Positions 4,278 through 36,222 of a stretch of DNA of 38,523 nucleotides are shown here, piece after piece. Each line of letters opens with the position of its first letter. The first letter of the stretch is position 1. The stretch lies in the IMG/VR virus record IMGVR_UViG_3300045738_002446, positions 1-38,523 of that record; one strand, written 5' to 3'. The notes below the pieces were generated by a model. It saw only the letters and a program-made list of their open reading frames with translations. It made no database searches and was not told the DNA's origin. The stretch comes from a virus. Position numbers and translations under genes: made by a program.

Positions 4278-5048
4278 TTAAGTTAAATCTATTTCGTCTA
4301 ATACTAAGTAATTGGTTCTACTGGTTGCACCACCACCTAAATACTTGGCTTTACCCCAGTAAGTGTTGTTATCCCAAAAACCATCTATAATAACATCGTT
4401 GGTTTCTAATAAGGTTTTTGCACCAGCATTAGTTGGGTGTTTTATTAGTGTAAATTTGTTACCATTTATGGTAATTTTATCTACATCGTTTTTGGTAGCA
4501 AACCATGCTGTTACATCTACAGAAACTGTAGTACCACCAAGCGTAGTAAAGTCTAATATAAAATCTGATGCGCTTCTTTTACTGGCATTGTTTAACGCTC
4601 CTAAATCTACCAAGTCTTTTATAGAAATATCTATAGTAGCACCACCTGTAAAGGTAAAACGTATGCTATCTTTATAGTTATCTGCATCGTTACTATCTAT
4701 AAAAGTAGGTGGGTTACTTTCATCTAAAAAGCTTAAATTATCTATAAGGTCTTTTAAGTCTTTTACTGCTTTAGAATTTGCTGCTACATCTGTAGCACCG
4801 CTATTTAAAGCACTAGATAAAGCTGGTGTTACTCGTTTCCAAACTACACCTGTTAAGCTACCAGCTGTAGGGTAGGTTTCTAACTTGTAACGCAAGCCAT
4901 CTGCTTCATGGAAAATAACATGCCCTACTTGTATGGCTTGGTTTGTAATTAATAAATTACGTGCTGCATCATTGGCAACCCTATATTTTTTATCTATATC
5001 TTGGCTGCCCGTAATTTCTATACTGTGTGGAAAAATTTGCTTACTCAT
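4278..5048 (-). CDS. Phage baseplate/fibre-associated protein
   Basis: The 256-residue product begins with MSKQIFPHSIEITGSQDIDK, a start style common in virion accessory proteins, and has a middle region of short beta and helical stretches. Its last 60 residues (about 198-256) carry a module with the pattern FxLIK...GD/NDxIxDxFWDxxTYWxKAxYLGG that also occurs twice at the C-terminus of the adjacent tail hub protein. The sharing of that module implies that the two proteins bind the same partner or assemble together at the tail tip. It lies between the hub gene (11 bp away) and the large fibre gene (11 bp away). A receptor-binding or fibre-attachment role is inferred. Confidence 0.65.
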   Translation of the reverse strand: MSKQIFPHSIEITGSQDIDKKYRVANDAARNLLITNQAIQVGHVIFHEADGLRYKLETYPTAGSLTGVVWKRVTPALSSALNSGATDVAANSKAVKDLKDLIDNLSFLDESNPPTFIDSNDADNYKDSIRFTFTGGATIDISIKDLVDLGALNNASKRSASDFILDFTTLGGTTVSVDVTAWFATKNDVDKITINGNKFTLIKHPTNAGAKTLLETNDVIIDGFWDNNTYWGKAKYLGGGATSRTNYLVLDEIDLT

Positions 5049-5059
5049 ATCGTTTGTTT

Positions 5060-7015
5060 TTATGGTTCTAAATTGGTTTGCCCTAATACCTTCCAGCTAC
5101 TTTTAATATTTACATTACCCCCTAAATATTGGGCTTTATCCCAGTAGTCGAACTCTGTAAACAGGTTATCGTAAATAAAGTCGCCCACTTCTAACTGGGT
5201 AACATCTGTATTTTGCCAGCCTTTTATAAGCTTAAATTGCCTATCATTTATCAATACAAATTCTAAAGGCGTAGGTTCATCAGGAAAAGCATCTACATCT
5301 TCTTCTAAAGGTGTAAAATCTATAGAGTTTGCTTCTAGCCAGTTGCTTCGTATGTTTTTGTTATTGCCTAAAAACTGCCAAGCTTGTACGTAGGTGTTTC
5401 TATCCCAAAAATTGCCACTAATAATATCGCCAGTTTGCAAGGCATCTGCTTGGGTATTATCAAAAGATTTATGCAAGTAAAAAGTTTGGTTATTTACTAC
5501 AATTGTATTGCCACTTGAACCTGTTACTGTGTTGGTTATATTTTGCACAGATTGATTTAAAAACACTGTTTTTTGTGTAGCAGATAATTTAGAAATCCTG
5601 TTATTTAATGCCTGAAATTGCTTTACAGTTTTTGTAGACGTTCTGTTTACATAGTCTTGCAGCTCATAGGGTATATAATCTGCAATAAGCGCAGTAATTT
5701 TATTTTGATTTACCAAAGGGTATTTAAGCTCTTGAATACGTATAGCCCTATCTACACCAAGAGTTACATCTTTAATTTTAACCAAATCACTAGCATTTAC
5801 TACTATTTCATTGGCTTTGGTATATTTTGGGTCTATTTTAACTTCGTACAAGGTTTTAGGCACACTATTGGCATCTAAATAGGCTTGTGTAGCCTTTTTT
5901 AACTCTAGTTCTGCTTGTATTACATAACTAGGTGGCATTTTTAAATCTACTAAGGTGTATAAATCGCCAATTCTAGGCATTTTACCAGTTTTAGGTAATG
6001 TATAACCATCTGTATCTTGAAAGGCTTTAAAATAGATGCGTTTGTCTAAAACACTGTATTTCCATATTTCAAATTCAACCCCATTTAAATCGCCACTTTT
6101 AAACACAATTTTAGCACTTTGCCCTTCTAACAGAAAATCGTTTATATTAAAATCTAAAGTTGAGTCTGCTACATAGCTGTTTTCATCAAAAGCATCGTTT
6201 GTAAAAAACACATTTGCATCTGTTATAGCTGCTGTTCTTTGTGGGTAAATGGTTTCGTCTGTAAAATTGGCTTCACGTATGCCATAAATGGCTGTGTTTT
6301 GCTCTAGTTTACGTTCTTCAAAAACAAGTTTTTTAGCTCTATCTCTATAATCGAAAGGTATATTTTTAGTACCTCCAAAGCCAAACACTCTTGTAAATAC
6401 TGCTTTAGAGTCTACCTGTTTACGCTCTATATTGTACAGCCCTTTATTACGCCCATACTCGAATGTAATATCTCTTGGTGTGCCTATTACTTTTTTAAAG
6501 TTTATAGTTTTACCATCTAATTCAAATTCAAATTTAAAAGTGTTTGCAACCTTATTTAAAGCTTCTAAACAGGTTTCGTTTACAAAGTCTAACAGTAATG
6601 CCCCACTTTCTTCTACAGTGCCTACTTGCCAGCCACTTTGTATTTGGTTTATCTGCTCTACAATTAGGGTTAAGAATTGGCTTACTGTGCCTACTTCAGA
6701 AAATTCAGAAAGCCCATCACTAGAAATAAATAACTTATAATTAAGTTGGTATAAAATACCATGAAAAAACACCTTGTACTTATTGGTAAAAACATTGGTT
6801 TTACTAATGGTAGGTAAATGTTCTAAAGTGTAGGTTTTGTTATTTAAGGTAACATAATCGCCCAACTGAATAGGTATTGCAGCTGGCACAATAAAGTGTG
6901 CTTCAATAACTTCTACTTCCATTACTTTTTGGGTAAATACTGTTTTAGTATCAATATTTACACTTGCAATTGCTGTAGCTGGTGCTGTACCTCTATATAT
7001 TGTTAATTCATTCAT
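5060..7015 (-). CDS. Tail hub / tail-associated protein (endopeptidase-tail family-like)
   Basis: The 651-residue product has an N-terminal part of about 400 residues that looks like siphovirus tail hub proteins (gp27-like fold, the Tal or prophage endopeptidase tail family): a short beta start (ELTIYRG), LGDYVTLNN at about residue 56, and a long beta-rich body with YNIERKQVDSKAVFTRVFGFGG. A central coiled segment (residues about 470-500, FQALNNRISKLSATQ) follows. Two copies of a roughly 60-residue module (about 512-575 and 592-651) end the protein, and the same module ends the neighbouring 256-residue protein. It overlaps the Dit-like gene by ATGA, so the two are translationally coupled. No peptidase motif was recognised, so lytic activity is not claimed. 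Confidence 0.65.
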   Translation of the reverse strand: MNELTIYRGTAPATAIASVNIDTKTVFTQKVMEVEVIEAHFIVPAAIPIQLGDYVTLNNKTYTLEHLPTISKTNVFTNKYKVFFHGILYQLNYKLFISSDGLSEFSEVGTVSQFLTLIVEQINQIQSGWQVGTVEESGALLLDFVNETCLEALNKVANTFKFEFELDGKTINFKKVIGTPRDITFEYGRNKGLYNIERKQVDSKAVFTRVFGFGGTKNIPFDYRDRAKKLVFEERKLEQNTAIYGIREANFTDETIYPQRTAAITDANVFFTNDAFDENSYVADSTLDFNINDFLLEGQSAKIVFKSGDLNGVEFEIWKYSVLDKRIYFKAFQDTDGYTLPKTGKMPRIGDLYTLVDLKMPPSYVIQAELELKKATQAYLDANSVPKTLYEVKIDPKYTKANEIVVNASDLVKIKDVTLGVDRAIRIQELKYPLVNQNKITALIADYIPYELQDYVNRTSTKTVKQFQALNNRISKLSATQKTVFLNQSVQNITNTVTGSSGNTIVVNNQTFYLHKSFDNTQADALQTGDIISGNFWDRNTYVQAWQFLGNNKNIRSNWLEANSIDFTPLEEDVDAFPDEPTPLEFVLINDRQFKLIKGWQNTDVTQLEVGDFIYDNLFTEFDYWDKAQYLGGNVNIKSSWKVLGQTNLEP

Positions 7016-8591: not shown

Positions 8592-11500
8592 CTATTGAAT
8601 AAATAAATAATGGCTTTCTGTGGTTTCGTCTATACTTTCTAGGTACTCATTGCCTTTTTTAAGGTGCAGTATCATTTCTCTAGTATTGGCTTCGATTAAT
8701 GTATTCATAGCCAATATTTCTAAAGTGGTGTTATGATGCCCTTTTTCTGCTTCTATATACGCTTCCATCTGTTCTAAATTAAAGCGTGTTAAGTCGTAAA
8801 AACCTCTAAAAAGCCCTAGTAACTCTGTGCCTGTTTGTTCTGTTAATTCTCTACGAATACCACCTGTTAAAGCGTTATTATTAGTAGCATTATCAAATAT
8901 TGAAAAGCCAAGTGCAGCAGCTTCTGCTTGTGCATCTTCCATAGCTTTATTAAAGTCGTCTGTTAGTGCAGATGCGCTTGTAAAAAATCTACTAAAATCA
9001 TCTACCCAGTTATTATCACCACCCAAATCAAAAGAAGCTGCCATTTGTTTTTGCAAATCATCAAAAGCTTGCTGAAATATTTGGTTAAAAATAAAGTTGC
9101 TCAATACGTTTTCTAAGACCTTTTCTACAGTTTCACCCATTTTTACAGCAGCATCTTCACCAGCTACAAAAGCTTCTACTAAGGTGTTTCTTAAATCATC
9201 TCCTAAACTACCAGCTAAATCTGCTATAACCTCTTTTATTTGCTCTTTTGCTTTTTGCAACTCCTCTTGCCAAGCAATTACATTTTCTAAAATTTCTTTG
9301 GTTTCGCCTTTTACTAATTTGTTAGCTATTAAGCTTTCTGCGAGTTCTGCATTTACAGTTCGCATACCACTTGCAGACATTTCTATAAGTTCAGGGTATT
9401 CTTTTAAAATGGCAGTCATTTCGTCTTTTTTCTTACCACCAAACAGCAAACCACCTATAAAACCACCAATAGCACCCACTAATGTACCCACTACAGGTAT
9501 TACAGAGCCTAGAGCTGCACCAGCAGCTGTAGCACCACCAACATTACCCCAACCTATTGAGTTTCTTTTACCAGTTACAGCTTGCCCTTTTTCTGCCAAC
9601 TCATTTAAAGCAGTTTGTAAGCCTTCATTAGCAGAAAAAATAGCTGCTGTACCATCTTGCAAACGCCCTACATAATCTGTCATAAAAACATTTTCTGCAA
9701 GTTCACTTTGTAATCTTTTTTGCTCTTGTAAGCCTAAATTATATTGGTTTTGAAAGCCTATAACATTTAGGTAATATTCTTCTTCAGCTTGTTTACGTTT
9801 AGCAGCTGCACTAGCAAAAACAGATATTAAAGAAATAGCAGCACCTATACCAGCAGCTATTTTTTGTTCTTTAGTTTCTGCATCTAAGGCGTTAAAAAAA
9901 TCGTCTAAACCACCAGCAATACCACTTAAAAAAGCACCAGCATTTTTAACATCACTAGAACCTAAAACATCGCCAATATCTTGTAGTGCTGTTCCAAAAT
10001 CTCCTAAACGTTCTGTGTAACGAAATAAATTATCTATACTTTGCTGGTTGATTTCACGCTCTAAGTTTGCAATAGCTTTTTTAATTTTTGCACGTAAATC
10101 ATCAGATATATTTACCTTATTTAGCAATTGTTTTGCGTTGGCAATTACCAGCTTCGCTTCTCTTTTTGTTAAACTTATAATACCTCTTTGTAAGGCTTTG
10201 TAGCTTGCTAGTTTTTTTATATTGGTATCGTCTAAAGCATCTAGCTCTTCTTTGTGTTTAAGATTTGCTTGCTTTACCTTTTCGCCTTCACCTTTAGCAA
10301 TTAAATCTAAAACAAGTTGCTGATGTTGCTCTATTAAAATTTTACGCTGTTGGTGGTAACTTATTAAATCTGCTAACTGCTTATTAAATTCAGTTTGCTG
10401 TTCTTTAGTAGCTTTTTTTAGTTCTTTATTTATAAAATTAACACGTTCTGTTTGCCCACCTGTAGCTTTGCTATTTTTTACTGCTGAAAAGGCAGTAGCA
10501 TTATCTTTTTCGAGCTGCTTTAAAAAGTCGTAGTAGGTTTCTGCTTCAGTAATTTTACTAGCATATTCTTCTTTGGCAGCTGTTTCACCAAATGTTTTTT
10601 TGTAGTCCTCAAACTCTTTGTACAGGTTCTTCTGCTCTTGTAATTCTTTTTTAAGGGCATCTGTTTCTTGCCTAAATACTAGGTCTGAAGTTGCAGTACC
10701 TTCTAAGGCATTAAAAGCAGTTAGGTCTATAATTTCTGCTTTGTTTTTTGGGTCTGCATTAAAACGCTCTACCAAGGTTCTAATTTTAGCAAACTTATCT
10801 TTTAAAGCTTGTAGTTCTTCTTCTTCTTTAGTGAATGATTTTCTAGTGTATTCTGCATCTATGGCAGCTATCTTATCCATTAAAGATTGATACTGACTTA
10901 CTTTTTTTACTGGGTCTTTATCATCATCATCTGTACCAAAAATATCTAAACCAGCTGCACTTGCAATTTTTGCAGACTGCTCAAAAAGCTTATCAACTAC
11001 GCTTTGCGATTTTGAAACTACTTCATCTCGCTTTTTTTCGATTTCTGAAATATCTTCATTTAAACCATCAATATAGTTTTGTGTTATTTCTGCTTGGCGA
11101 TTTAATCTATCTCCTTGTGAGTCTGTAACAGTAACACCTGTAGAACCTTGCTTGGCTTGCTCAATTTCTCTTTGCCTTTGCGCTTCTTGCTGTTGTTTTT
11201 TTCGCTCTTTTTCTATATCAATTTCTTCAGAAAGCTTATTGATTTCTTTTTGGCTTTCAGCTAAATTTATAGCAGCTTCTTTAGCAGCCTCCATAGCAGC
11301 CACTTTAAACAACATTGCTTTTATATAAGCTGGTGCTTTGTTTATTACATTATTTTCTGCTACGTTTAAATCGTCAGTTTCTCCTACAACATCACCAAGA
11401 GTATCATTGTATTTATCTAAAGCTACTTCTTTATCTATTAGCCCTTTTTTTGCTAAGTTTATTACAGACGTTAACTCAAATAATTCAGAAATTGTTTTCT

Positions 11501-12080
11501 TATAAGCTGTAGACTCAAATGCTTTATTTACTGCTTCTTGCCTAGAAGCTAGTTCATCTAAAGCTTTAGTACCTTTAAATAAAGTGCCTATCCAGTTCAC
11601 TATATCTTTACCATAAATAGTAAGTAAAGCAACACCTACAGATAAGGCTGTTTGCCAAGACAACAACCCTTTTACTACTTGTTTCCAAACTGGTACAGAA
11701 TCTTTACCTGAAGCAGTTAAAGCAGCGTTTTTATCTCGTATTCTTTGTATTTCGTCTGCTAGTATTGGTAAGTTGTTAGAAATGGCTAAAAACCCTGTTT
11801 GTGCGTTTACAGCAAAGGCTGGTATTTCTCTACTTAACTGATTTATTGAATTACCCAAACCATTCCAAACACGTTGCGTTCTTACACCTTGCTGTTGTAG
11901 AGCTGGCATAGTTTTAAACGCTTGGCGTTCTAAAGCAGCATTCATTTTTTGGTTTATTTTCTTTTCTGCTTCTTCAGCAGTGTAGCCAATATCCATCAAA
12001 CTCTTTTTAACTTTTTCTGAAGATACCTTTACTTCAGGTGCGTTAATTAGAAAATCTACATTAATAGGTTGAAAACTCAT
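8592..12080 (-). CDS. Tail tape measure protein
   Basis: At 1162 residues this is the largest phage protein. It has long helical, Lys/Glu/Ala-rich coiled-coil stretches (for example residues 270-360 and 390-640), a Gly/Ala-rich hydrophobic segment near residues 845-885 (VGTLVGAIGGFIGGLLFGGK) and another near 740-765. Such proteins set tail length and cross the host membranes during DNA entry. It follows the tail tube and chaperone genes and precedes Dit, the canonical siphovirus order. The start follows 9 bp after the stop of the chaperone frameshift extension. No lytic transglycosylase or peptidase motif was recognised. Confidence 0.9.
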   Translation of the reverse strand: MSFQPINVDFLINAPEVKVSSEKVKKSLMDIGYTAEEAEKKINQKMNAALERQAFKTMPALQQQGVRTQRVWNGLGNSINQLSREIPAFAVNAQTGFLAISNNLPILADEIQRIRDKNAALTASGKDSVPVWKQVVKGLLSWQTALSVGVALLTIYGKDIVNWIGTLFKGTKALDELASRQEAVNKAFESTAYKKTISELFELTSVINLAKKGLIDKEVALDKYNDTLGDVVGETDDLNVAENNVINKAPAYIKAMLFKVAAMEAAKEAAINLAESQKEINKLSEEIDIEKERKKQQQEAQRQREIEQAKQGSTGVTVTDSQGDRLNRQAEITQNYIDGLNEDISEIEKKRDEVVSKSQSVVDKLFEQSAKIASAAGLDIFGTDDDDKDPVKKVSQYQSLMDKIAAIDAEYTRKSFTKEEEELQALKDKFAKIRTLVERFNADPKNKAEIIDLTAFNALEGTATSDLVFRQETDALKKELQEQKNLYKEFEDYKKTFGETAAKEEYASKITEAETYYDFLKQLEKDNATAFSAVKNSKATGGQTERVNFINKELKKATKEQQTEFNKQLADLISYHQQRKILIEQHQQLVLDLIAKGEGEKVKQANLKHKEELDALDDTNIKKLASYKALQRGIISLTKREAKLVIANAKQLLNKVNISDDLRAKIKKAIANLEREINQQSIDNLFRYTERLGDFGTALQDIGDVLGSSDVKNAGAFLSGIAGGLDDFFNALDAETKEQKIAAGIGAAISLISVFASAAAKRKQAEEEYYLNVIGFQNQYNLGLQEQKRLQSELAENVFMTDYVGRLQDGTAAIFSANEGLQTALNELAEKGQAVTGKRNSIGWGNVGGATAAGAALGSVIPVVGTLVGAIGGFIGGLLFGGKKKDEMTAILKEYPELIEMSASGMRTVNAELAESLIANKLVKGETKEILENVIAWQEELQKAKEQIKEVIADLAGSLGDDLRNTLVEAFVAGEDAAVKMGETVEKVLENVLSNFIFNQIFQQAFDDLQKQMAASFDLGGDNNWVDDFSRFFTSASALTDDFNKAMEDAQAEAAALGFSIFDNATNNNALTGGIRRELTEQTGTELLGLFRGFYDLTRFNLEQMEAYIEAEKGHHNTTLEILAMNTLIEANTREMILHLKKGNEYLESIDETTESHYLFIQ

Positions 12081-12088
12081 AGTTAGTT

Positions 12089-12397
12089 CTATTTGTGTCT
12101 TGCTGCGTAATCAAATCCTGATTGATGTATTACATCATCATCAGCATCGCTTTCTTTTTTTGTACTTATAAATCTGCTTCTATCTGCCATCATTAAATAC
12201 AAATTGGCTCTATTTACTTTCCAAAGCACATAATGCCAAGTCCAGCCAGTTTCTTTAATAATTTCAAATAGTTTACCCCAAGGGCTATGTAAGCCAACTT
12301 GCTTTAACTCCCTTTTGTCTGTTGACCCAAGTTCGGTGTCGTTAACTTCATCTTGCGAACCGATTTGGTAATAGTTATAAAATCCTGTGTACCACCA
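12089..12397 (-). CDS. -1 frame extension of the tail assembly chaperone (gpT-like part)
   Basis: In the -1 frame relative to the upstream chaperone the sequence is open from 12397 to a TAG at 12089-12091, filling the whole gap before the tape measure gene. There is no ATG until the middle (LYLMMADRSR), so it is unlikely to start on its own. The encoded part includes WGKLFEIIKETGWTWHYVLW and NRANLYLMMADRSRF, the layout of the T domain of siphovirus gpG-gpGT chaperones. Near the 0-frame stop, codons ACA AAA GGG AGT TAA offer a possible slippage site on AAA. The -1 frame is readable for about 29 codons before that point, so the exact shift site is uncertain. The fused product would span about 12089-12789. 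Confidence 0.7.
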   Translation of the reverse strand, partial: WWYTGFYNYYQIGSQDEVNDTELGSTDKRELKQVGLHSPWGKLFEIIKETGWTWHYVLWKVNRANLYLMMADRSRFISTKKESDADDDVIHQSGFDYAARHK

Positions 12398-12789
12398 TTA
12401 ACTACTACAATAGCTACCAGCTGAAGTAGAGCCTGTGGGCTTGCATTCCAGCGTAAATACCAAGCTAAAATATTGGTAAACAACATGCCTTTGATGTAGC
12501 CATTTAAGATGGCTACTGCTACTGCTTTGCTAATAGCTTTACCATGTTTTACATGGGTTTGCAAAGCCTGTTCTATAGTTATACCTTCTAAATCATCTAT
12601 AGTTAAGCCAGTAGACAAATAATAGCGAGCTACCCTGTGCATTGTACCTTCAAATGGGCTAGTAATTGTTAGTTGTATGGTTTTCTTAAACAGACGTATT
12701 AAAAAAGGGGCTGGTAATTTAATAGCAACCCCTTTTTGTAAAATAGTATCTGCCACAGATTTTTCAATATGTGGGTTTTGTTTTTCCAT
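12304..12789 (-). CDS. Tail assembly chaperone (gpG-like)
   Basis: The product, about 161 residues from the ATG at 12789, lies between the tail tube and tape measure genes, where siphoviruses encode gpG/gpGT. It is largely helical, with a basic C-terminus (TKSVRKMKLTTPN). A longer reading from a TTG at 12807 is possible, but the ATG comes one base after the stop of the tail tube gene and is the better start. An overlapping -1 frame continues past its stop codon to the tape measure gene, as in the programmed frameshift that makes gpGT in lambda-like phages. The short form probably coats the tape measure and the long form recruits tail tube subunits. Confidence 0.7.
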   Translation of the reverse strand: MEKQNPHIEKSVADTILQKGVAIKLPAPFLIRLFKKTIQLTITSPFEGTMHRVARYYLSTGLTIDDLEGITIEQALQTHVKHGKAISKAVAVAILNGYIKGMLFTNILAWYLRWNASPQALLQLVAIVVVNGGTQDFITITKSVRKMKLTTPNLGQQTKGS

Positions 12790-12790
12790 G

Positions 12791-13300
12791 TTATGCTGGT
12801 TCTGCAATAATTACAGGTTTCAGAGCTGCAAAGTTTGGCTTTAATACAGTTGCCTTAATAGGATGCACTAAAACACCTTTTTCAGAAACTTCTCCTGTAG
12901 TTCTACCACTTACTTTTACTCTTGGGTACTGTATAACATGCCCTGATTTTAAAGTGATTTTTAAATACTTTTCAATATTTACATTTTCTTCAGGTGCGTT
13001 CCAAGAGTCTACTGTATCTACAGTAGTAACAGCACCACCCATTAAGCTAACTTTTTGCGCTGGTGTTGCACCAAATAAGTTTGCCATAACTTTTGTTAAG
13101 CCAGCTTCGTCTATAGATACTACTGGGTATCTGCTGCTGCCTTCTACAAAGTGGTTTGTTTCTGTAGCTTCAGGTTCGTCTATTGTAATGGTATCTTTAT
13201 AGATAACATCAGTTAGGTCTACTGGGTTTTCGATAGCTCCATCTAGTGTAGCTATATCACCCACTTCAAAGCTTGTAATTCCGTATGCGTATTTTCCCAT
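12791..13300 (-). CDS. Major tail tube protein
   Basis: The 169-residue protein starts MGKYAYGITSFEVGDIATLD and is beta-rich, with a hydrophobic ALKPVIIAEPA end. Size and position (directly before the chaperone and tape measure genes, after the head genes) fit a siphovirus tail tube subunit, which polymerises into the hollow tail. It contains a VDLTDVIYKDTITIDEPE stretch and a long central loop typical of tube subunits. Only one tube gene and no sheath gene are present, which argues against a contractile tail even though many early genes are Mu-like. Confidence 0.75.
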   Translation of the reverse strand: MGKYAYGITSFEVGDIATLDGAIENPVDLTDVIYKDTITIDEPEATETNHFVEGSSRYPVVSIDEAGLTKVMANLFGATPAQKVSLMGGAVTTVDTVDSWNAPEENVNIEKYLKITLKSGHVIQYPRVKVSGRTTGEVSEKGVLVHPIKATVLKPNFAALKPVIIAEPA

Positions 13301-19645: not shown

Positions 19646-22252
19646 ATGGGAATTAATAAAAATCTAAATAGACACAAAAAAAATAGCGCAAAGGTTAAAA
19701 ACCCTGACAATGCACCAAATGCTGTAGTAATACAAAACGTAGATGTTAGACCTATACACAGAACCAGCCAAGATATTCCAAAATGGCGACAAGCAATACA
19801 GTCTGCTGAAGCACAAACACCAAGACGTAAGCTACTCATGGAATTATACCACGATGTAGTTTTAGATGCACACGTACTAGCTGTAGTTGGTAAAAGACAA
19901 GATGCAGTTACTGGTGCAAATTGGCAATTTGTAAACAAAGATGGTGAAGCTGTAGAAGAAATTAACGACCTCATAGACTCTATTGGTTTTGAAGAATTAT
20001 GTAAAGAAATTATAAATGCTAAATTTTGGGGCTATAGTATTTTTGAACCGAAGTTTTATAAAAACAAAGACGAAAACTGGGAAATGACCTCAAACCTTAT
20101 TCCTAGAAGGCATTATTACCCTGAAAAGGGCATAGTATCTTATGATGCAGTTTCTGAAGAAGGTATAAACATTAGAGAAGGTATTTACAGCAAAACCATT
20201 TTAGAAGCTGGCGACCCTACAGATTTAGGTTTGTTTGCTTCAGCAGCTCAATACTACGTTTTAAAAAGAGGTGGTATAGGCGATTACGCAATGTATGTAC
20301 AGGTTTTTGGTAGACCCATAATAGATGCTACTTGGGATGGTACAGACGAAGAACAACGCCTAAAACTAAAGCAAGCTTTAGACATTGGTGCTGGTGGTAC
20401 AATTATAAGACCTGATGGCACAGAAATAAAAATCATAGAAAGTAAAGGCGCACAAAGCACTGTGCATAACGACTTTTACAAAGCTATGAACGATGAAATT
20501 TCTAAAGCTCTATTAGGTACTACAGAAACTACTACAAGTTCAGATAGCAGTGGTTATGCACAAGCAGAAACACATGCTACAAGTGATGATAGAAAATTTA
20601 AAGGCGATATTACCTATGTGCGAAAAGTATTAAACTCACGTTTCATTAAAATACTAGAAGCTCATGGCTTTAATACAGAAGATGGAAAATTTACTGTAGA
20701 AGAAGTAGACAATGTTTCGCTTAAAGAAAAAATTACTATTGTAAATGATTTAAAAGAAAAGCACAATTTACCAATAGAAGATGATTATTTGTACGAAACT
20801 TTTAATTTACCAAAACCTGATGATTACGATGCTAGAAAAAAACAGCAAGAAGAAGCTGCACCAAAACCTGAAGATAAAAATGTAACCAAAAACAAACCAC
20901 CTAAAAAGAAAGACAAAGAAGAACCTTCTAAAACCTCTAAAACAAAAGACGAAGCTGAAGATGAAAAAGAGGTAAAACTAAAAGCGAAATGGTGGCAAGA
21001 CGTTAAAGATTTTTTTCTAAAAGCCCCAGCGAAAGTTGGGGCAGCCAATGGAAAACACCACACAATTAATTTAGCCTTTGAAAGCTCTTTTAATTCTGAT
21101 GAACTTATACAACGTGCTTACGATGCAAATGGAAATTTTGAGTTTGATGCAGCCCTATTTAAAAGCAATTTAAAAGACCTTTTAAAAGGTTTTAAAACAG
21201 GATGGGATAAACAGCTAGTAGCTTTAAATACAGATTTAGGTTTCGAGTATAATTTTAACGACCCAGCAATGCTTACAGCTTTTGAAATGAATTTATTTCG
21301 TTTTGCTGGTGCTAAAAATTTAGCTCTTGCTCAACAATTAAATGAAATCTTTAGAAGCAGTACAAGCTTTGCAGATTTTAAAGCAAAAGCCAGTAGACTA
21401 ACTAAAATCTATAACCAAGATTATTTAGCTACAGAATACAACACAGCTTTATTAACTGGCGAAAGTGCAGCTTTGTATCACAGGTTAAAAGCGCAAACAG
21501 ATGTATTTCCTTACTGGCAATACAAAACTGCTTTTGATGAACATGTAAGACACAGCCACAAACCTTTGCACGATATTATTTTAAACGCAGATGATAAACG
21601 CTGGGCAAAGCTATTTCCACCTAATGGTTGGAATTGCAGATGCTACGTAAAACCATTAATGGCACACGAAGTAGATACTGCCAAGCTTAAAAAACATCAA
21701 GCGAAAGCAGATGCGTATTTAACAAGTCCAGCGCATGCGAAAGAAGCTGCCCAAGGTTGGGGTGTAAATCGTGGTGAAACTGGCGAAATATTTACAGCCA
21801 ATCAGCAATATGTAAATACATTCCAAAATAACAGCAGCAGTATTTTAAACGATTTAAAACCTGTTAAATGGGGCTTGCAACAATATAGTAATGCCAAAAA
21901 AGTAGCTACAGCAAATACACCTATTAACCAAAGCACAATAGATGTTTTGGTAGCAGATTTAAAAGACTATAATAACAGGATTTTAAAAGTAGATGCCAAC
22001 CTATTTGCTGAAGGTAAAAAGAAGGTAGATTTATTAGATGCAATGTTAGCTGCTCTAAAAAAACCACACGAAGTTTGGGTGCAAAATAACGATGCAGAAA
22101 GCTTTATTTATCTGCATTATTTTAATGATAAAACCATTGCTGTAAAAGCCATTTTAAAAGACCTAGAATTAACCATAGAAGATTTGGTAGACCTAGAAGC
22201 TAACAAAGCTTTAATACAGCAATACAGAAAAGGGTTACTAGCTAAACAATGA
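19646..22252 (+). CDS. Portal (DUF935/gp29-like) fused to F-like head protein and putative PBECR nuclease domain
   Basis: This 868-residue protein appears to join three units. Residues about 1-395 resemble the Mu gp29 portal (DUF935): QDIPKWRQAIQSAEAQTPRR, AVVGKRQDAVTGANWQF, and the GRPIIDATWDG and TETTTSSDSSGYAQAETH stretches. A highly charged Lys/Glu/Pro linker follows (about 396-450). Residues about 470-690 resemble Mu gp30/SPP1 gp7 F-like head proteins, with HKPLHDIILNADD and the closing PPNGWNCRCYVKPL. The last 110 residues (KKPHEVWVQNNDAESFIYLH ... YRKGLLAKQ) look like a PBECR barnase/EndoU/RelE-type nuclease domain. The portal forms the DNA vertex; the F part is a minor head protein; the nuclease part may be injected or defend against rivals. 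The last assignment is the least certain. Confidence 0.75.
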   Translation: MGINKNLNRHKKNSAKVKNPDNAPNAVVIQNVDVRPIHRTSQDIPKWRQAIQSAEAQTPRRKLLMELYHDVVLDAHVLAVVGKRQDAVTGANWQFVNKDGEAVEEINDLIDSIGFEELCKEIINAKFWGYSIFEPKFYKNKDENWEMTSNLIPRRHYYPEKGIVSYDAVSEEGINIREGIYSKTILEAGDPTDLGLFASAAQYYVLKRGGIGDYAMYVQVFGRPIIDATWDGTDEEQRLKLKQALDIGAGGTIIRPDGTEIKIIESKGAQSTVHNDFYKAMNDEISKALLGTTETTTSSDSSGYAQAETHATSDDRKFKGDITYVRKVLNSRFIKILEAHGFNTEDGKFTVEEVDNVSLKEKITIVNDLKEKHNLPIEDDYLYETFNLPKPDDYDARKKQQEEAAPKPEDKNVTKNKPPKKKDKEEPSKTSKTKDEAEDEKEVKLKAKWWQDVKDFFLKAPAKVGAANGKHHTINLAFESSFNSDELIQRAYDANGNFEFDAALFKSNLKDLLKGFKTGWDKQLVALNTDLGFEYNFNDPAMLTAFEMNLFRFAGAKNLALAQQLNEIFRSSTSFADFKAKASRLTKIYNQDYLATEYNTALLTGESAALYHRLKAQTDVFPYWQYKTAFDEHVRHSHKPLHDIILNADDKRWAKLFPPNGWNCRCYVKPLMAHEVDTAKLKKHQAKADAYLTSPAHAKEAAQGWGVNRGETGEIFTANQQYVNTFQNNSSSILNDLKPVKWGLQQYSNAKKVATANTPINQSTIDVLVADLKDYNNRILKVDANLFAEGKKKVDLLDAMLAALKKPHEVWVQNNDAESFIYLHYFNDKTIAVKAILKDLELTIEDLVDLEANKALIQQYRKGLLAKQ

Positions 22253-22767
22253 AACACGAAAATCAAATAAACAACTGGTTTGCAAACTTTAATCATAGGT
22301 TTGATACTCGTGTGCCAAACATTGTTGCAGAAACTGCTACCAGTTTTTACAAAGAACGTTTTGAGCCACAAAACCAAGATTGGGATGGTGTAAAATGGAA
22401 ACCTTTAAACCCAAGGTATGCAGCTCGTAAAACTAGAGGTAAAGGGCGTATTTTGTATGCAAGCTCTAATTTACAAGCCAGTATTAAACCAAGCATGGTA
22501 ACACAAAATCGTGTACGTATTTCTGCTGGTAATGCTAAAGTACCTTATGCTGCTATACACAATGAAGGCTTACGTGTTACAGGTACATTTCAAGTAAAGC
22601 AACATGTAAAGCCTAATTTTATGGGTAAAGGCAAAAGACAGCTTATTAAAAGCCATAAACGAAGTGTAAATTACAAAATGCCACAAAGACAATTTATGGG
22701 ACATAGCCCAAGATTAAATAGAATACTAATAGATAGGCTTACAACCTTTTTTAACTCACAACAATAA
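22249..22767 (+). CDS. Mu gpG-like virion morphogenesis protein
   Basis: The 172-residue protein shows the pattern of Mu gpG/phage virion morphogenesis proteins: an N-terminal helical part (FNHRFDTRVPNIVAETATSF), then WDGVKWKPLNPRY, an ILYASSNLQASIK stretch, and YAAIHNEG followed by a late MPQRQFMGHS. These proteins act in tail completion or head-tail joining. The ATG overlaps the stop of the portal fusion gene (ATGA), suggesting translational coupling. It is basic throughout, as is usual for the family. Confidence 0.8.
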   Translation: MKHENQINNWFANFNHRFDTRVPNIVAETATSFYKERFEPQNQDWDGVKWKPLNPRYAARKTRGKGRILYASSNLQASIKPSMVTQNRVRISAGNAKVPYAAIHNEGLRVTGTFQVKQHVKPNFMGKGKRQLIKSHKRSVNYKMPQRQFMGHSPRLNRILIDRLTTFFNSQQ

Positions 22768-26398: not shown

Positions 26399-27385
26399 TT
26401 ATACACTTATTTTCTCAAACATATCTATTTGCTTATTTTCAAAATTAATTTCCTTTTCAGTTTCACTTCTTTTACTTAAATCAAAAGTTCCACAGAAACC
26501 AGAACAATCAACCATAGGTTTTGGTTCTCTTGCTTTCACGTCTAAAACAGTTCTATTTTGTGGGTAATCAGGATGTGGCAACAAGAACAATAAGGCGTCT
26601 TTTTTATTTTCTAAATCTTTTGCTTCATTACTTTGCTCTTTACACATTGTTACTTGAAAACCCGCTTTATCTGTTAATTCGTGTTCTTTCAAAGCACGTT
26701 TCATATAATAAGGTTTATTAGTTCTGTATATCATTTGCCAATAACCAATACCTCCTTGAACACATCCAAATTCTTCTCCTAAACAATTATTATTACCAAA
26801 ACTTTCTTTATACGCTAATGGTATTTCAATCCCTAAAACAGTTAATACTTCAATACATTTTTGTTTGTTAAATGCTCTCATTAATAATGGAAATATTGCT
26901 TTAGCTTTTGGATGGTTTAAGTGCAAAGACATTGCTCTGTTAAATTCTTTTTTATCAAATTCAAATCCAAAAACTTGGTGCATATATTCATTTTCTAATT
27001 GCCATTTTTCACGCACACCACGTTTTAAATCTGTAGAACAAACAGCACCATAACTTACATTTAAACTTACATACCAATCCCAAACATCGGCAATAGAATA
27101 ATAATGAGTATTTTTATTTGGTTGGTAATATTTAGCACGTTTAAGAAAAATATCTTTATAGTTTTTTAATCTTGGTTTATAATCCTTAATTCCTGTTATT
27201 ATTTCAATCTCAATTCCATACATTTCTTCACAATCCAGAAAAAATCTATAAGTATCAAAATGCTCATTACAAGTATCTATAAAAATAACTCTACAATTTT
27301 CTTTTCCATAGTATCTGATGGCAAGTAAACAAGCAACTGCACTTGTTACCCCTCCAGACCACCAACATATAATTTTATCTTTCAT
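26399..27385 (-). CDS. PP-loop ATPase, PAPS reductase-like
   Basis: The 328-residue protein begins KDKIICWWSGGVTSAVACLL, whose SGGVTS (residues 10-15) is the PP-loop signature of the adenine nucleotide alpha-hydrolase/PAPS reductase group. Later motifs include FIDTCNEHFDTYRFF and GAVCSTDLKRG. Its cysteine-rich C-terminal half (NNNCLGEEFGCVQGG; CSGFCG near residues 295-299) could bind metal or an iron-sulfur cluster. Relatives in phages and DNA phosphorothioation systems take part in sulfur or nucleotide modification, but the substrate here cannot be inferred. Flanked by hairpin-rich spacers and isolated from its neighbours, it looks like an acquired cassette. Confidence 0.7.
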   Translation of the reverse strand: MKDKIICWWSGGVTSAVACLLAIRYYGKENCRVIFIDTCNEHFDTYRFFLDCEEMYGIEIEIITGIKDYKPRLKNYKDIFLKRAKYYQPNKNTHYYSIADVWDWYVSLNVSYGAVCSTDLKRGVREKWQLENEYMHQVFGFEFDKKEFNRAMSLHLNHPKAKAIFPLLMRAFNKQKCIEVLTVLGIEIPLAYKESFGNNNCLGEEFGCVQGGIGYWQMIYRTNKPYYMKRALKEHELTDKAGFQVTMCKEQSNEAKDLENKKDALLFLLPHPDYPQNRTVLDVKAREPKPMVDCSGFCGTFDLSKRSETEKEINFENKQIDMFEKISV

Positions 27386-33093: not shown

Positions 33094-33942
33094 TTATTGC
33101 TTTTTTAAGTGAGCATGAACATCATTACGTATTACACGTACATCGTAATTACAGCTGTTAAATATTTCTGTAATTAGTAAATCATCTGTTAAGCCATTGG
33201 CTCTACATATCTTTTTAGCATCATTTAAGTTGATTTTAGGCACTTCTAAGAAAATCTGACCTATTCTACTGTAAATCTCTTGAAAGCCTTTTTTACCTGT
33301 ATCTACGCCATTCTGTATAAAAGACTGTAGATAGTGAGTAGCTTGTATAATTAAGCCACATTTACCTTCTAAGGCATTAAATAAGCTGATAAAGAAGTAC
33401 AGCACTTTTCTGTCTAGCTTATCTGCTTCATCTATAATAATTACAGGGTTTTTAAGCTTTAAAAGATGCTTTACAATTTCTTTCATTAGTGTACTTATTC
33501 TACCACTATATATTCTTACACCCATAGCTTCACAGATAGCTTCTAAAAAATCTCTACTGGTAAAGTATTCATGGCAGCTTATTACAAAAACATTATTGGT
33601 TTCTGTTCTTAATACAGATTTAGATTTGCACCCACCAGCAATACCTACCAAACCTTTTACGCTAGAGTTTTCAGCTGCATCTTGTATTACTTTTTCTATA
33701 AAAATACTGGGTCTTATAGCCACATATTGCCATTCGCCTTTTTTAGATACTTGGTTTTTAATGTTTTGCCACATGGTATCTGCCACTTTTTCGTGTTTGT
33801 TATTTAACACGTTACTAATGGTAGCATTACTAACACCACTAAGGATTTGGCTGGCTTTATTGGCTGAACCATCTGCCATGTTTTGCACGTAGTTGTACAA
33901 GTCGTTTGTGATTTTCTTTTTTTGTTCGTCTAAAATTTCCAT
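33094..33942 (-). CDS. MuB-like AAA+ transposition ATPase
   Basis: The 282-residue protein has an N-terminal HTH (about 18-50, SANKASQILSGVSNATISNV) as in MuB, then an ATPase core with a P-loop GIAGGCKS at residues 100-107, Walker B VIIIDEADKLD, and a C-terminal helical lid. MuB picks the target DNA and activates MuA. The P-loop is unusual: Cys105 takes the place of the usual Gly before Lys106-Ser107. It lies downstream of the transposase gene with one small gene between. Whether ATPase activity is retained is unknown. Confidence 0.8.
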   Translation of the reverse strand: MEILDEQKKKITNDLYNYVQNMADGSANKASQILSGVSNATISNVLNNKHEKVADTMWQNIKNQVSKKGEWQYVAIRPSIFIEKVIQDAAENSSVKGLVGIAGGCKSKSVLRTETNNVFVISCHEYFTSRDFLEAICEAMGVRIYSGRISTLMKEIVKHLLKLKNPVIIIDEADKLDRKVLYFFISLFNALEGKCGLIIQATHYLQSFIQNGVDTGKKGFQEIYSRIGQIFLEVPKINLNDAKKICRANGLTDDLLITEIFNSCNYDVRVIRNDVHAHLKKQ

Positions 33943-34010
33943 TTTTGTATTTGTATTTAATTACAGTTAATTGCGTAGTAGCTTTTCGTAGAAGCTGCTG
34001 CGCTTTTTTA

Positions 34011-34196
34011 TTATGATTTTCGATATAGTGGTATAGTTCCATTAATTGCATCTACAGCTTCGCCTAAAAGCTTATTAGTTTTTTCATAACCAATTTCTTC
34101 TACTACTTTACCTATAAAAAGTTGCTTAATTAATTTATCAGCATTTATACTTTCTTTTGTAGCTTCAAATTCAATTGTAACTGGTGATTGTTTCAT
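34011..34196 (-). CDS. Small protein between transposase and MuB-like genes
   Basis: The 61-residue product (MKQSPVTIEFEATKESINAD...) starts at ATG 34196, just after the transposase stop; a TTG at 34223 is less likely. It is acidic, with a helix LIKQLFIGKVVEEIGYEKTN and a C-terminal ending IPLYRKS. No family is recognised. The position suggests a transposition or early-control role. Confidence 0.5.
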   Translation of the reverse strand: MKQSPVTIEFEATKESINADKLIKQLFIGKVVEEIGYEKTNKLLGEAVDAINGTIPLYRKS

Positions 34197-34200
34197 AATT

Positions 34201-36222
34201 CTATCTATTTCTAATTTGTTCAAATGGGTCTACTTCTTCTTCATCATCTACAGGCAGTTCAATTACTTTAGCACCATTGTTTTTGGCAGTAATTAATTGC
34301 TGGTCTTTGTAAGTAATTTCTTTAACTAATACCCCAGCTTGTAGTCTGCTTTCTGCATCTATACCAGCTCTGTCTAGTAAAGCTTGTTTTTCTTCAGAAA
34401 AACCTTGTATGTAAGGCATTATTACCTTTTTTTCTTCTAAACGTGCCTTAATTAAGGCAGCAGTACCTTCTTTATAATCTGCAAGAGCTGCTGGGTTTTT
34501 TATGTATTTATGGGCTACAAAGCGTAGTTTATCGCCATCTGTAAGCAGCACACTATCTAAGTTGGCATCATCATAAATAACATTCATTTTTTTACCAATA
34601 TATTTAGCTATTTGCCATTGGCTTAACTCGTAAACATGCTCTTTTTTACCTATTTTAACTCTTATACCATCTTTGGTAATGGCGTTTTTTTGTAGGTCTA
34701 AACTGTTAGGCTTTAGGTTGCGTTTACCAAATATTAAGAAACGTTGTTCTTCAGATAGCAAACGTTTTTTGCTTTTATCGCTTTCATAAAACGCCTGTAG
34801 CCATTCTTCTTTACGTGTTAAATCAGACCCTTTTCGTTTTGTATTACGCATTGCTTCTATAAACAAGTGTATTGCTTTTGGGGCTTGGTCTACGTGTGGG
34901 AAATCTTTGGTTTTTAGGGTTTCAGAATTTAATCGCTGTTTAGCTGTAATGTTATGCCCAGCATAGTTTTTAGGGAAAGCTTGTTTAAGTATTTTGTGCC
35001 AAGTACTACCAAAAGACTGCTCTATATAGTTAGAGCCTTTGGTTTGCAATCCTGAAGCAAAATAGGTAGATGTACTGTTGTAAAACTGCTCTATTTCTGT
35101 GGTGTTTTTACCACTTATACCCCATCTATCAGTTTGCAACTGCTGCCATATATAATTATCTCCTGTAAGCTCCTGTATATGCCTGTGTGCGTTTCTAAAA
35201 GCTTCTTTTACTACGTCTTTTGTAATGGTGTTACCCCAAGCATAACCTAGTATGTAATCATTATAGGCATCAATAACCACATAAATAGCTGGTCTGTACC
35301 AGTCTGTTTTTGGTGCGCCTTTAAAGTAAACATCCCAGTTATTATCATCACCATTAATTAGTAGAAGTGGGGCAGAAGGTCTTTCTCTTTGGGTGTTTTT
35401 AGTGTATTTACTAATGGTTTTAGAAACTCCATCACGTTCTACAGACAATTCTAAATGCCATTTTTTACGCCAGTAGCCTACAGCTTCAGGTGTAATAGGT
35501 TCGCCACCAAATTCCTTACAATATTTAGCATATTCTTCAGCTACAGTAGTATCTGCATGCTTGTTACGTAAAGAAAGCAGTTTAAACAGGTATGCTTTAG
35601 CAGTTTCATCACTTACTTTAGCACTATAGCTGTTTCCAAACTTATGCGTTTCTACTAAAGTTTCATACCCATTTTTGGTATATTCTTTTAATTTTGGTAG
35701 CAAATGCTTACGTGTTGCTGGCAGTTTTACGCCTTTAACTTTAATAAGCTCAAAAACAGCTTTCCAAAATTCCATTATAGATATGTTAAACTCTTTTTTA
35801 AGTGTAGTTTTATCTGCTGTAAGCTCCTGTAGCATGTTTAGCCAGTTAGCAGCTGTAGTATATCTGCTTACATAGTTAATCTGTGGCTTGCCATTTAAAT
35901 CTGTATCAGTAGCTGGCAGCTTTAACCCATTAGGTAACACATAGCTAGTATAAAAATCTTGTGCAGCTTGGTCGTGCTTTATTGCGTTTAGTAAAGGCTG
36001 TTTTAAAGCGTATTTGTAAGGGCAACCATACAAATCTTGTACGTTTTGCTTGTGTTTGCTAGATAAACTCTCATAATCAACAAACACAGTTCTTCCATTA
36101 CCCCCTACACCAAATACCTCAATATTACCTTTACCCCTATGATAATCATAGTTTTTCTTACTCATAACACTAGGCACAAGCTCTTTAAATTCTAAACACA
36201 AAGAATTGTTTATATACTGCAT
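34201..36222 (-). CDS. MuA-like DDE transposase
   Basis: The 673-residue protein has an rve/RNase H-like catalytic core with Asp292 (in NGDDNNWDVYF), Asp365 (in QTDRWGIS) and Glu401 (in NYIEQSFG), the three metal ligands of DDE transposases. The N-terminal 270 residues are DNA-binding, with a winged-HTH-like start (MSKKNYDYHRGKGNIEVFG). Residues about 515-590 fit the Mu transposase C-terminal beta-barrel domain (DGIRVKIGKKEHVYELS). It integrates and replicates the phage by transposition. Its ATG overlaps the stop of the preceding HTH gene, and it is the second gene of the early operon. Confidence 0.9.
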   Translation of the reverse strand: MQYINNSLCLEFKELVPSVMSKKNYDYHRGKGNIEVFGVGGNGRTVFVDYESLSSKHKQNVQDLYGCPYKYALKQPLLNAIKHDQAAQDFYTSYVLPNGLKLPATDTDLNGKPQINYVSRYTTAANWLNMLQELTADKTTLKKEFNISIMEFWKAVFELIKVKGVKLPATRKHLLPKLKEYTKNGYETLVETHKFGNSYSAKVSDETAKAYLFKLLSLRNKHADTTVAEEYAKYCKEFGGEPITPEAVGYWRKKWHLELSVERDGVSKTISKYTKNTQRERPSAPLLLINGDDNNWDVYFKGAPKTDWYRPAIYVVIDAYNDYILGYAWGNTITKDVVKEAFRNAHRHIQELTGDNYIWQQLQTDRWGISGKNTTEIEQFYNSTSTYFASGLQTKGSNYIEQSFGSTWHKILKQAFPKNYAGHNITAKQRLNSETLKTKDFPHVDQAPKAIHLFIEAMRNTKRKGSDLTRKEEWLQAFYESDKSKKRLLSEEQRFLIFGKRNLKPNSLDLQKNAITKDGIRVKIGKKEHVYELSQWQIAKYIGKKMNVIYDDANLDSVLLTDGDKLRFVAHKYIKNPAALADYKEGTAALIKARLEEKKVIMPYIQGFSEEKQALLDRAGIDAESRLQAGVLVKEITYKDQQLITAKNNGAKVIELPVDDEEEVDPFEQIRNR

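Follow-up and report, generated by a model that had tools for sequence, protein, structure and literature searches.

The G/GT tail-assembly chaperone of phage lambda, reportedly described by Levin in 1993 and by Xu in 2004, uses the slip site G_GGA_AAG. The lambda system is reviewed in PMC5009743, where Z_ZZN is described as the minimal -1 element and G_GAU_UUU is documented as a viral -1 shift site, that of pea enation mosaic virus (umbravirus). In Bacteroidota, ribosomes hide the anti-Shine-Dalgarno (anti-SD) sequence and SD sequences are reportedly unrecognised (PMC10783764). No description of the tail-chaperone frameshift treated here was found for phages of Bacteroidota in the open-access papers searched; the main text of the hankyphage paper mentions neither a frameshift nor a chaperone, and in that of the P. 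gingivalis phage paper frameshifts come up for spanins only.

The stretch of viral DNA analysed here (the window, 38,523 nt) carries two overlapping reading frames that very probably encode a lambda G/GT-type tail-assembly chaperone of a Mu-like Bacteroidota phage, with a predicted shift at G_GAU_UUU followed by a 3' stem. The features of the locus are listed in the order of transcription.

12791-13300, minus strand: probable major tail protein, directly upstream of G; phrog_6767 (9.7e-28), a phrog without a named function
12304-12789, minus strand: G-like tail-assembly chaperone ORF, 0-frame, 161 aa, ATG 12789, TAA 12306-12304; phrog_14983 (1.7e-24)
12379-12385, minus strand: putative slip heptamer G_GAT_TTT, 0-frame codons GAT 12384-12382 and TTT 12381-12379
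12304-12385, minus strand: dual-coded segment, overlap of both frames, holding the C-terminal tail of G and the start of the T extension
12327-12368, minus strand: downstream hairpin, candidate 3' stimulator, arms 12368-12359 and 12337-12327, 9-10 bp, supported by covariation
12089-12379, minus strand: -1-frame T domain, predicted to be read after the shift, YNYYQIG...AARHK, TAG 12091-12089; phrog_11996 (1.4e-15)
8592-12080, minus strand: tape measure protein, directly after the -1 stop; phrog_9959, tail length tape measure (1.8e-19), and others

The overlap, the frame relation and the gene order (major tail protein, G, GT, tape measure) are read directly from the sequence. The offset is truly -1, the 0-frame codon starts being divisible by 3 and the other frame lying one base upstream. 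A preliminary description of this DNA had proposed a tail-assembly chaperone whose -1 extension holds a T-like domain, and conservation strongly supports this proposal. As it stated, the open -1 frame spans 12397 to 12089 (102 codons, minus strand) and fills the 223-nt gap between the chaperone ORF and the tape measure ATG (12080). The chaperone had been placed at 12089-12807; the ORF is present, but it most likely starts at ATG 12789 rather than at TTG 12807, since the alignments with close relatives and with phrog_14983 begin at that ATG. Related phages have a gene annotated as 'major tail' or 'tail protein' in the slot of 12791-13300, and homologues of G sit immediately before the tape measure gene in Elizabethkingia, Porphyromonas and Bacteroides phages.

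Elsewhere in the window, the regions 19646-22767 (plus strand) and 33094-36222 (minus strand) encode a Mu-like portal (PF06074), a Mu F-like protein, Phage_tail_S and a TniB/MuB-like ATPase, together with a 673-aa putative transposase that has no Pfam match and was assigned from its position. With these genes, the phage resembles a transposable phage of the hankyphage type. In the early-gene region, an ORF at 26399-27385 (minus strand) combines a PAPS reductase domain (PF01507) with an unnamed C-terminal part. A ribose-phosphate pyrophosphokinase gene (PF13793 and PF00156; 37687-38523, minus strand) is cut off by the right end of the record and is probably host DNA flanking an integrated copy; a possible phage-host junction would therefore lie between about 37231 and 37687.

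Relatives were identified by tblastn in 37 phage records for the 0-frame protein and in 60 for the -1 protein (Bacteroides, Porphyromonas, Elizabethkingia and Riemerella), and scans of viral contigs yielded more than 100 further loci. Two large scans were carried out, one with a pattern that contained the anchoring FYxYYQI motif and the other with patterns further downstream; one alignment (A1) proved unsuitable for pattern scans on account of its diversity. Once identical overlaps had been removed, 103 regions were left, which are distinct but phylogenetically non-independent. The 0/-1 overlap was present in every homologous locus examined, isolate phage genomes among them, and neither a fused nor a +1 arrangement was seen among these loci. 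The search for -1-frame stop codons in close homologues, suggested at the outset as a possible refutation, left the idea unrefuted. The same layout recurs in all 103 regions. In a sample of the family Flavobacteriaceae, 2 of 399 genomes were positive. Within the -1-only region, substitutions concentrate at the third positions of -1 codons (3, 2 and 10 against the relative L035, for example). Judged from these comparisons, the -1 frame is far beyond chance, given the phrog_11996 match (1.4e-15), the 60 phage records and a frame relation that was the same wherever examined.

The 0-frame tail, counted from the slip Phe, measures 25 codons in 89 of the 103 relatives. Its end, GGGAGTTAA (12304-12312, minus strand), is identical in 85/103 relatives across lineages; the two frames read GGGAGTTAA differently, one as GS-stop and the other as (G/R)EL. 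In Riemerella phage RAP44 (L016), minus-strand genes at 4441-6651 (an antirepressor and an Ig-domain protein) separate the T frame from the tape measure gene, and this insert breaks the usual adjacency of the two.

In the annotated relatives examined, the T part is a hypothetical ORF of its own, coincides partly with the tape measure annotation or is unannotated, and the frameshift is missing from the examined annotations of hankyphage, Porphyromonas, Elizabethkingia and Riemerella phages. Several of these public annotations, with T as a separate small ORF, agree with a T domain that is a gene of its own, started internally at a non-AUG codon or by translational coupling, without any frameshift. 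We regard this as highly improbable. The -1 frame of the window lacks ATG, GTG and TTG until the methionines of 'LMMADRSR' in its last third, which bears out the earlier remark that it has no good start, and such codons are absent up to 30 codons past the slip site in 47/103 homologous overlaps, the window among them. Moreover, the annotated small ORFs start 3' of the slip site and omit the conserved FYxYYQI frame start, and the onset of -1 constraint coincides with the heptamer, not with any start codon. Transcriptional slippage or a sequencing error could in principle also fuse both frames, but is hardly credible, the T run being only four long and the identical layout recurring in more than 100 distinct sequences that include isolate phage genomes.

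A programmed shift would take place at the heptamer 12385-12379, which lies 72 nt ahead of the 0-frame stop. All 103 distinct overlap regions carry N_NNT_TTY at the same homologous codon pair, with the Phe codon at the start of the conserved -1 motif FYxYYQI as anchor; this motif itself demands a -1-frame Phe, a test that every locus passed, and the requirement for T is partly due to this coding of -1 Phe, which presupposes -1 translation from the slip point. The commonest forms were G_GAT_TTT (30), C_CCT_TTT (19), G_TCT_TTT (15) and A_AAT_TTT (10), others being rarer (n = 103). Strict X_XXY_YYZ heptamers account for 32 of the 103 relatives (C_CCT_TTY 20, A_AAT_TTT 10, G_GGT_TTT 2) and G_GAT_TTY for 31; the G_GAT_TTT of the window is not a strict XXXYYYZ heptamer. 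The P-site amino acid is variable (D, P, S, N, A, H, G, R), with the codon before TTY always ending in T. At the slip site the ratio of TTT to TTC is 99:4, versus 291:303 elsewhere in the same genes.

The position of the slip site and the dual coding are also visible in the pattern of constraint. Synonymous codon identity, calculated for same-residue pairs, has a mean of 0.38 upstream of the site and of 0.72 beyond it (Mann-Whitney p 9e-12, with alignment columns treated as independent). The step lies at codon -2, where identity changes from 0.30 to 0.75, followed by 0.88 and 0.92; the onset is thus exactly two codons before the slip Phe. It recurs separately in a Flavobacteriia-type set (0.34 to 0.68) and in a Bacteroides-type set (0.44 to 0.76). 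In the window, -1 coding constraint begins only at about 12385, although the frame is open back to 12397. Nine relatives have a -1 stop immediately 5' of the heptamer, and therefore the shift cannot precede the heptamer. Taken together, the step and these stops rule out a shift before the heptamer as well as one at the end of the ORF.

The preliminary description had pointed to that end, where the string ACA AAA GGG AGT TAA is indeed present; ACA_AAA_GGG is close to the stop codon and its A_AAA lets the Lys tRNA re-pair. A slip at ACAAAAGGG is nevertheless very unlikely. The site is unconserved, AAAA being found there in just 6 of 103 relatives, the -1 constraint starts about 24 codons earlier, and both frames are constrained from 12385 onward. 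A late shift would leave the upstream -1 codons untranslated, yet FYNYYQIG... is conserved in the -1 frame. The caveat that the shift could occur earlier was correct; the site itself, G_GAT_TTT at 12385-12379, and the conserved 3' hairpin had both been missed. Further Z_ZZN sites lie in frame within the overlap of the window, GGGT 12328 and AAAA 12316; their position inside the dual-coded region makes them too late, and they were rejected.

Given a shift at this heptamer, the two tRNAs could slip in tandem, or tRNA-Phe could slip alone on U_UUY in the P site with the next codon in the A site. U_UUY is the sole invariant part of the signal (103/103), and Z_ZZN is the minimal -1 site already described (PMC5009743). 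The first base of the P-site codon mismatches base X in 28/103 sequences, and the G_TCT_TTT, C_AGT_TTT and G_CAT_TTT of some relatives pair poorly in the shifted P site. Under single-tRNA slippage, 7 nt would separate the stem from the A-site codon. In 75/103 sequences base X is identical to the first base of the P-site codon, which favours tandem re-pairing, and G precedes GAT in 31/31 GAT sequences, though the same base also encodes a -1 Gly. On this balance we consider slippage of tRNA-Phe alone a serious possibility, if short of an even chance.

Downstream of the heptamer, a stem is formed by positions 17-26 pairing with 48-58 (heptamer start = 0). Its covariation was analysed in 88 sequences with an ungapped overlap, on a protein tree built from regions outside the overlap. 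The stem showed 13 compensatory double changes on the tree, ranking first among 2,926 placements of identical shape; pair 20-55 by itself accounts for 6 compensatory changes, and the next best pair anywhere for 3. Among the close group of the window, 11 cells had changed on both sides versus 3.3 in shuffles, slid controls giving 0-2. In the window the stem comprises nine standard pairs, a mismatch and a bulge (-10.6 kcal/mol; z -1.8 for the stem alone), and the region from slip site to stop folds no better than shuffles (z -0.08). Because the window's own fold is unremarkable, the claim of a stem rests on covariation. A search against Rfam gave chance hits only. The spacer between heptamer and stem is 10 nt, slightly more than the usual 5-9 nt and within the reported variety of spacer lengths. 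The conserved stem-loop would most likely raise the shift rate.

No extra constraint indicative of an SD-like element 9-14 nt upstream was observed at codons -12 to -3, where identity was 0.34 and 0.44 versus 0.37 and 0.43 further upstream. This agrees with the reported SD blindness of Bacteroidetes ribosomes (PMC10783764). We tentatively suggest, and with some doubt, that the tail chaperones of Bacteroidota phages may share an SD-independent signal that combines the invariant U_UUY, on which tRNA-Phe alone might slip, with the conserved 3' stem-loop, and leaves the P-site codon free, even to the point of not re-pairing.

For the lambda-like mechanism as a whole, we infer a shift in vivo, and likewise its rate and the expected G:GT ratio. 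The majority of ribosomes would complete G (161 aa), and a minority would slip by -1 on G_GAU_UUU, with re-pairing to the mRNA either by both tRNA-Asp and tRNA-Phe or by tRNA-Phe only. Shifted ribosomes would then read the -1 frame to produce GT, predicted to consist of 137 residues of G plus the T domain (233 aa), with the junction ...NGGTQDF-YNYYQIG... and the junction-spanning peptide ...GGTQDFYNYYQIGSQDEVNDTELGSTDK. The corresponding junction of hankyphage would be ...GTDPF-YTYYQI.... By analogy with lambda, the G part may coat the tape measure protein and the T part may recruit the major tail protein. The chaperone proteins of the window have no sequence match in Pfam, NCBIfam or PDB, known G/GT families included; a PDB fold search with G also gave no match. 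In a Foldseek comparison with BFVD, the predicted G fold weakly resembles that of a Xylella phage Sano protein, 'Pre-tape measure frameshift protein G' (prob 0.99, TM about 0.44, E 0.03), and BFVD fold matches of G to other chaperones were non-significant. The structure model of the T domain is of low confidence (pLDDT 66).

These results allow G/GT to be annotated precisely, and in a form open to testing, in a large set of Bacteroidota phages, the common gut hankyphage included, in which the second chaperone product is currently annotated as a stray small ORF, merged with the tape measure gene or missing. They also supply a natural series of slip sites, constant in position and varying in the P-site codon, together with a candidate stimulator that is supported by covariation, and this in hosts with ribosomes that do without an SD element. 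Series and candidate stimulator could therefore be used to study the tuning of -1 frameshifting in such hosts.

Like lambda G/GT, the locus has two overlapping ORFs with a -1 shift, here predicted, near the end of the first, located between the genes for the major tail protein and the tape measure. The lambda T extension is similar in size to that of the window. Unlike lambda, the lineage of the window has a slip site of the form N_NNU_UUY, a conserved 3' stem-loop and a 0-frame tail after the slip site whose length is conserved (25 codons), and its proteins share no detectable sequence similarity with known G/T families. Pea enation mosaic virus has the same heptamer, G_GAU_UUU, and the same -1 direction, but is a eukaryotic RNA virus and the gene is unrelated (PMC5009743). 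E. coli dnaX additionally uses an upstream Shine-Dalgarno-like stimulator (PMC5009743), whereas no extra constraint is seen upstream of codon -2 in the lineage of the window; the combination of a slip site with a 3' stem-loop is common to this lineage and to dnaX-type signals. The kind, lambda-type G/GT, is already known, and the window represents a new lineage of a known mechanism.
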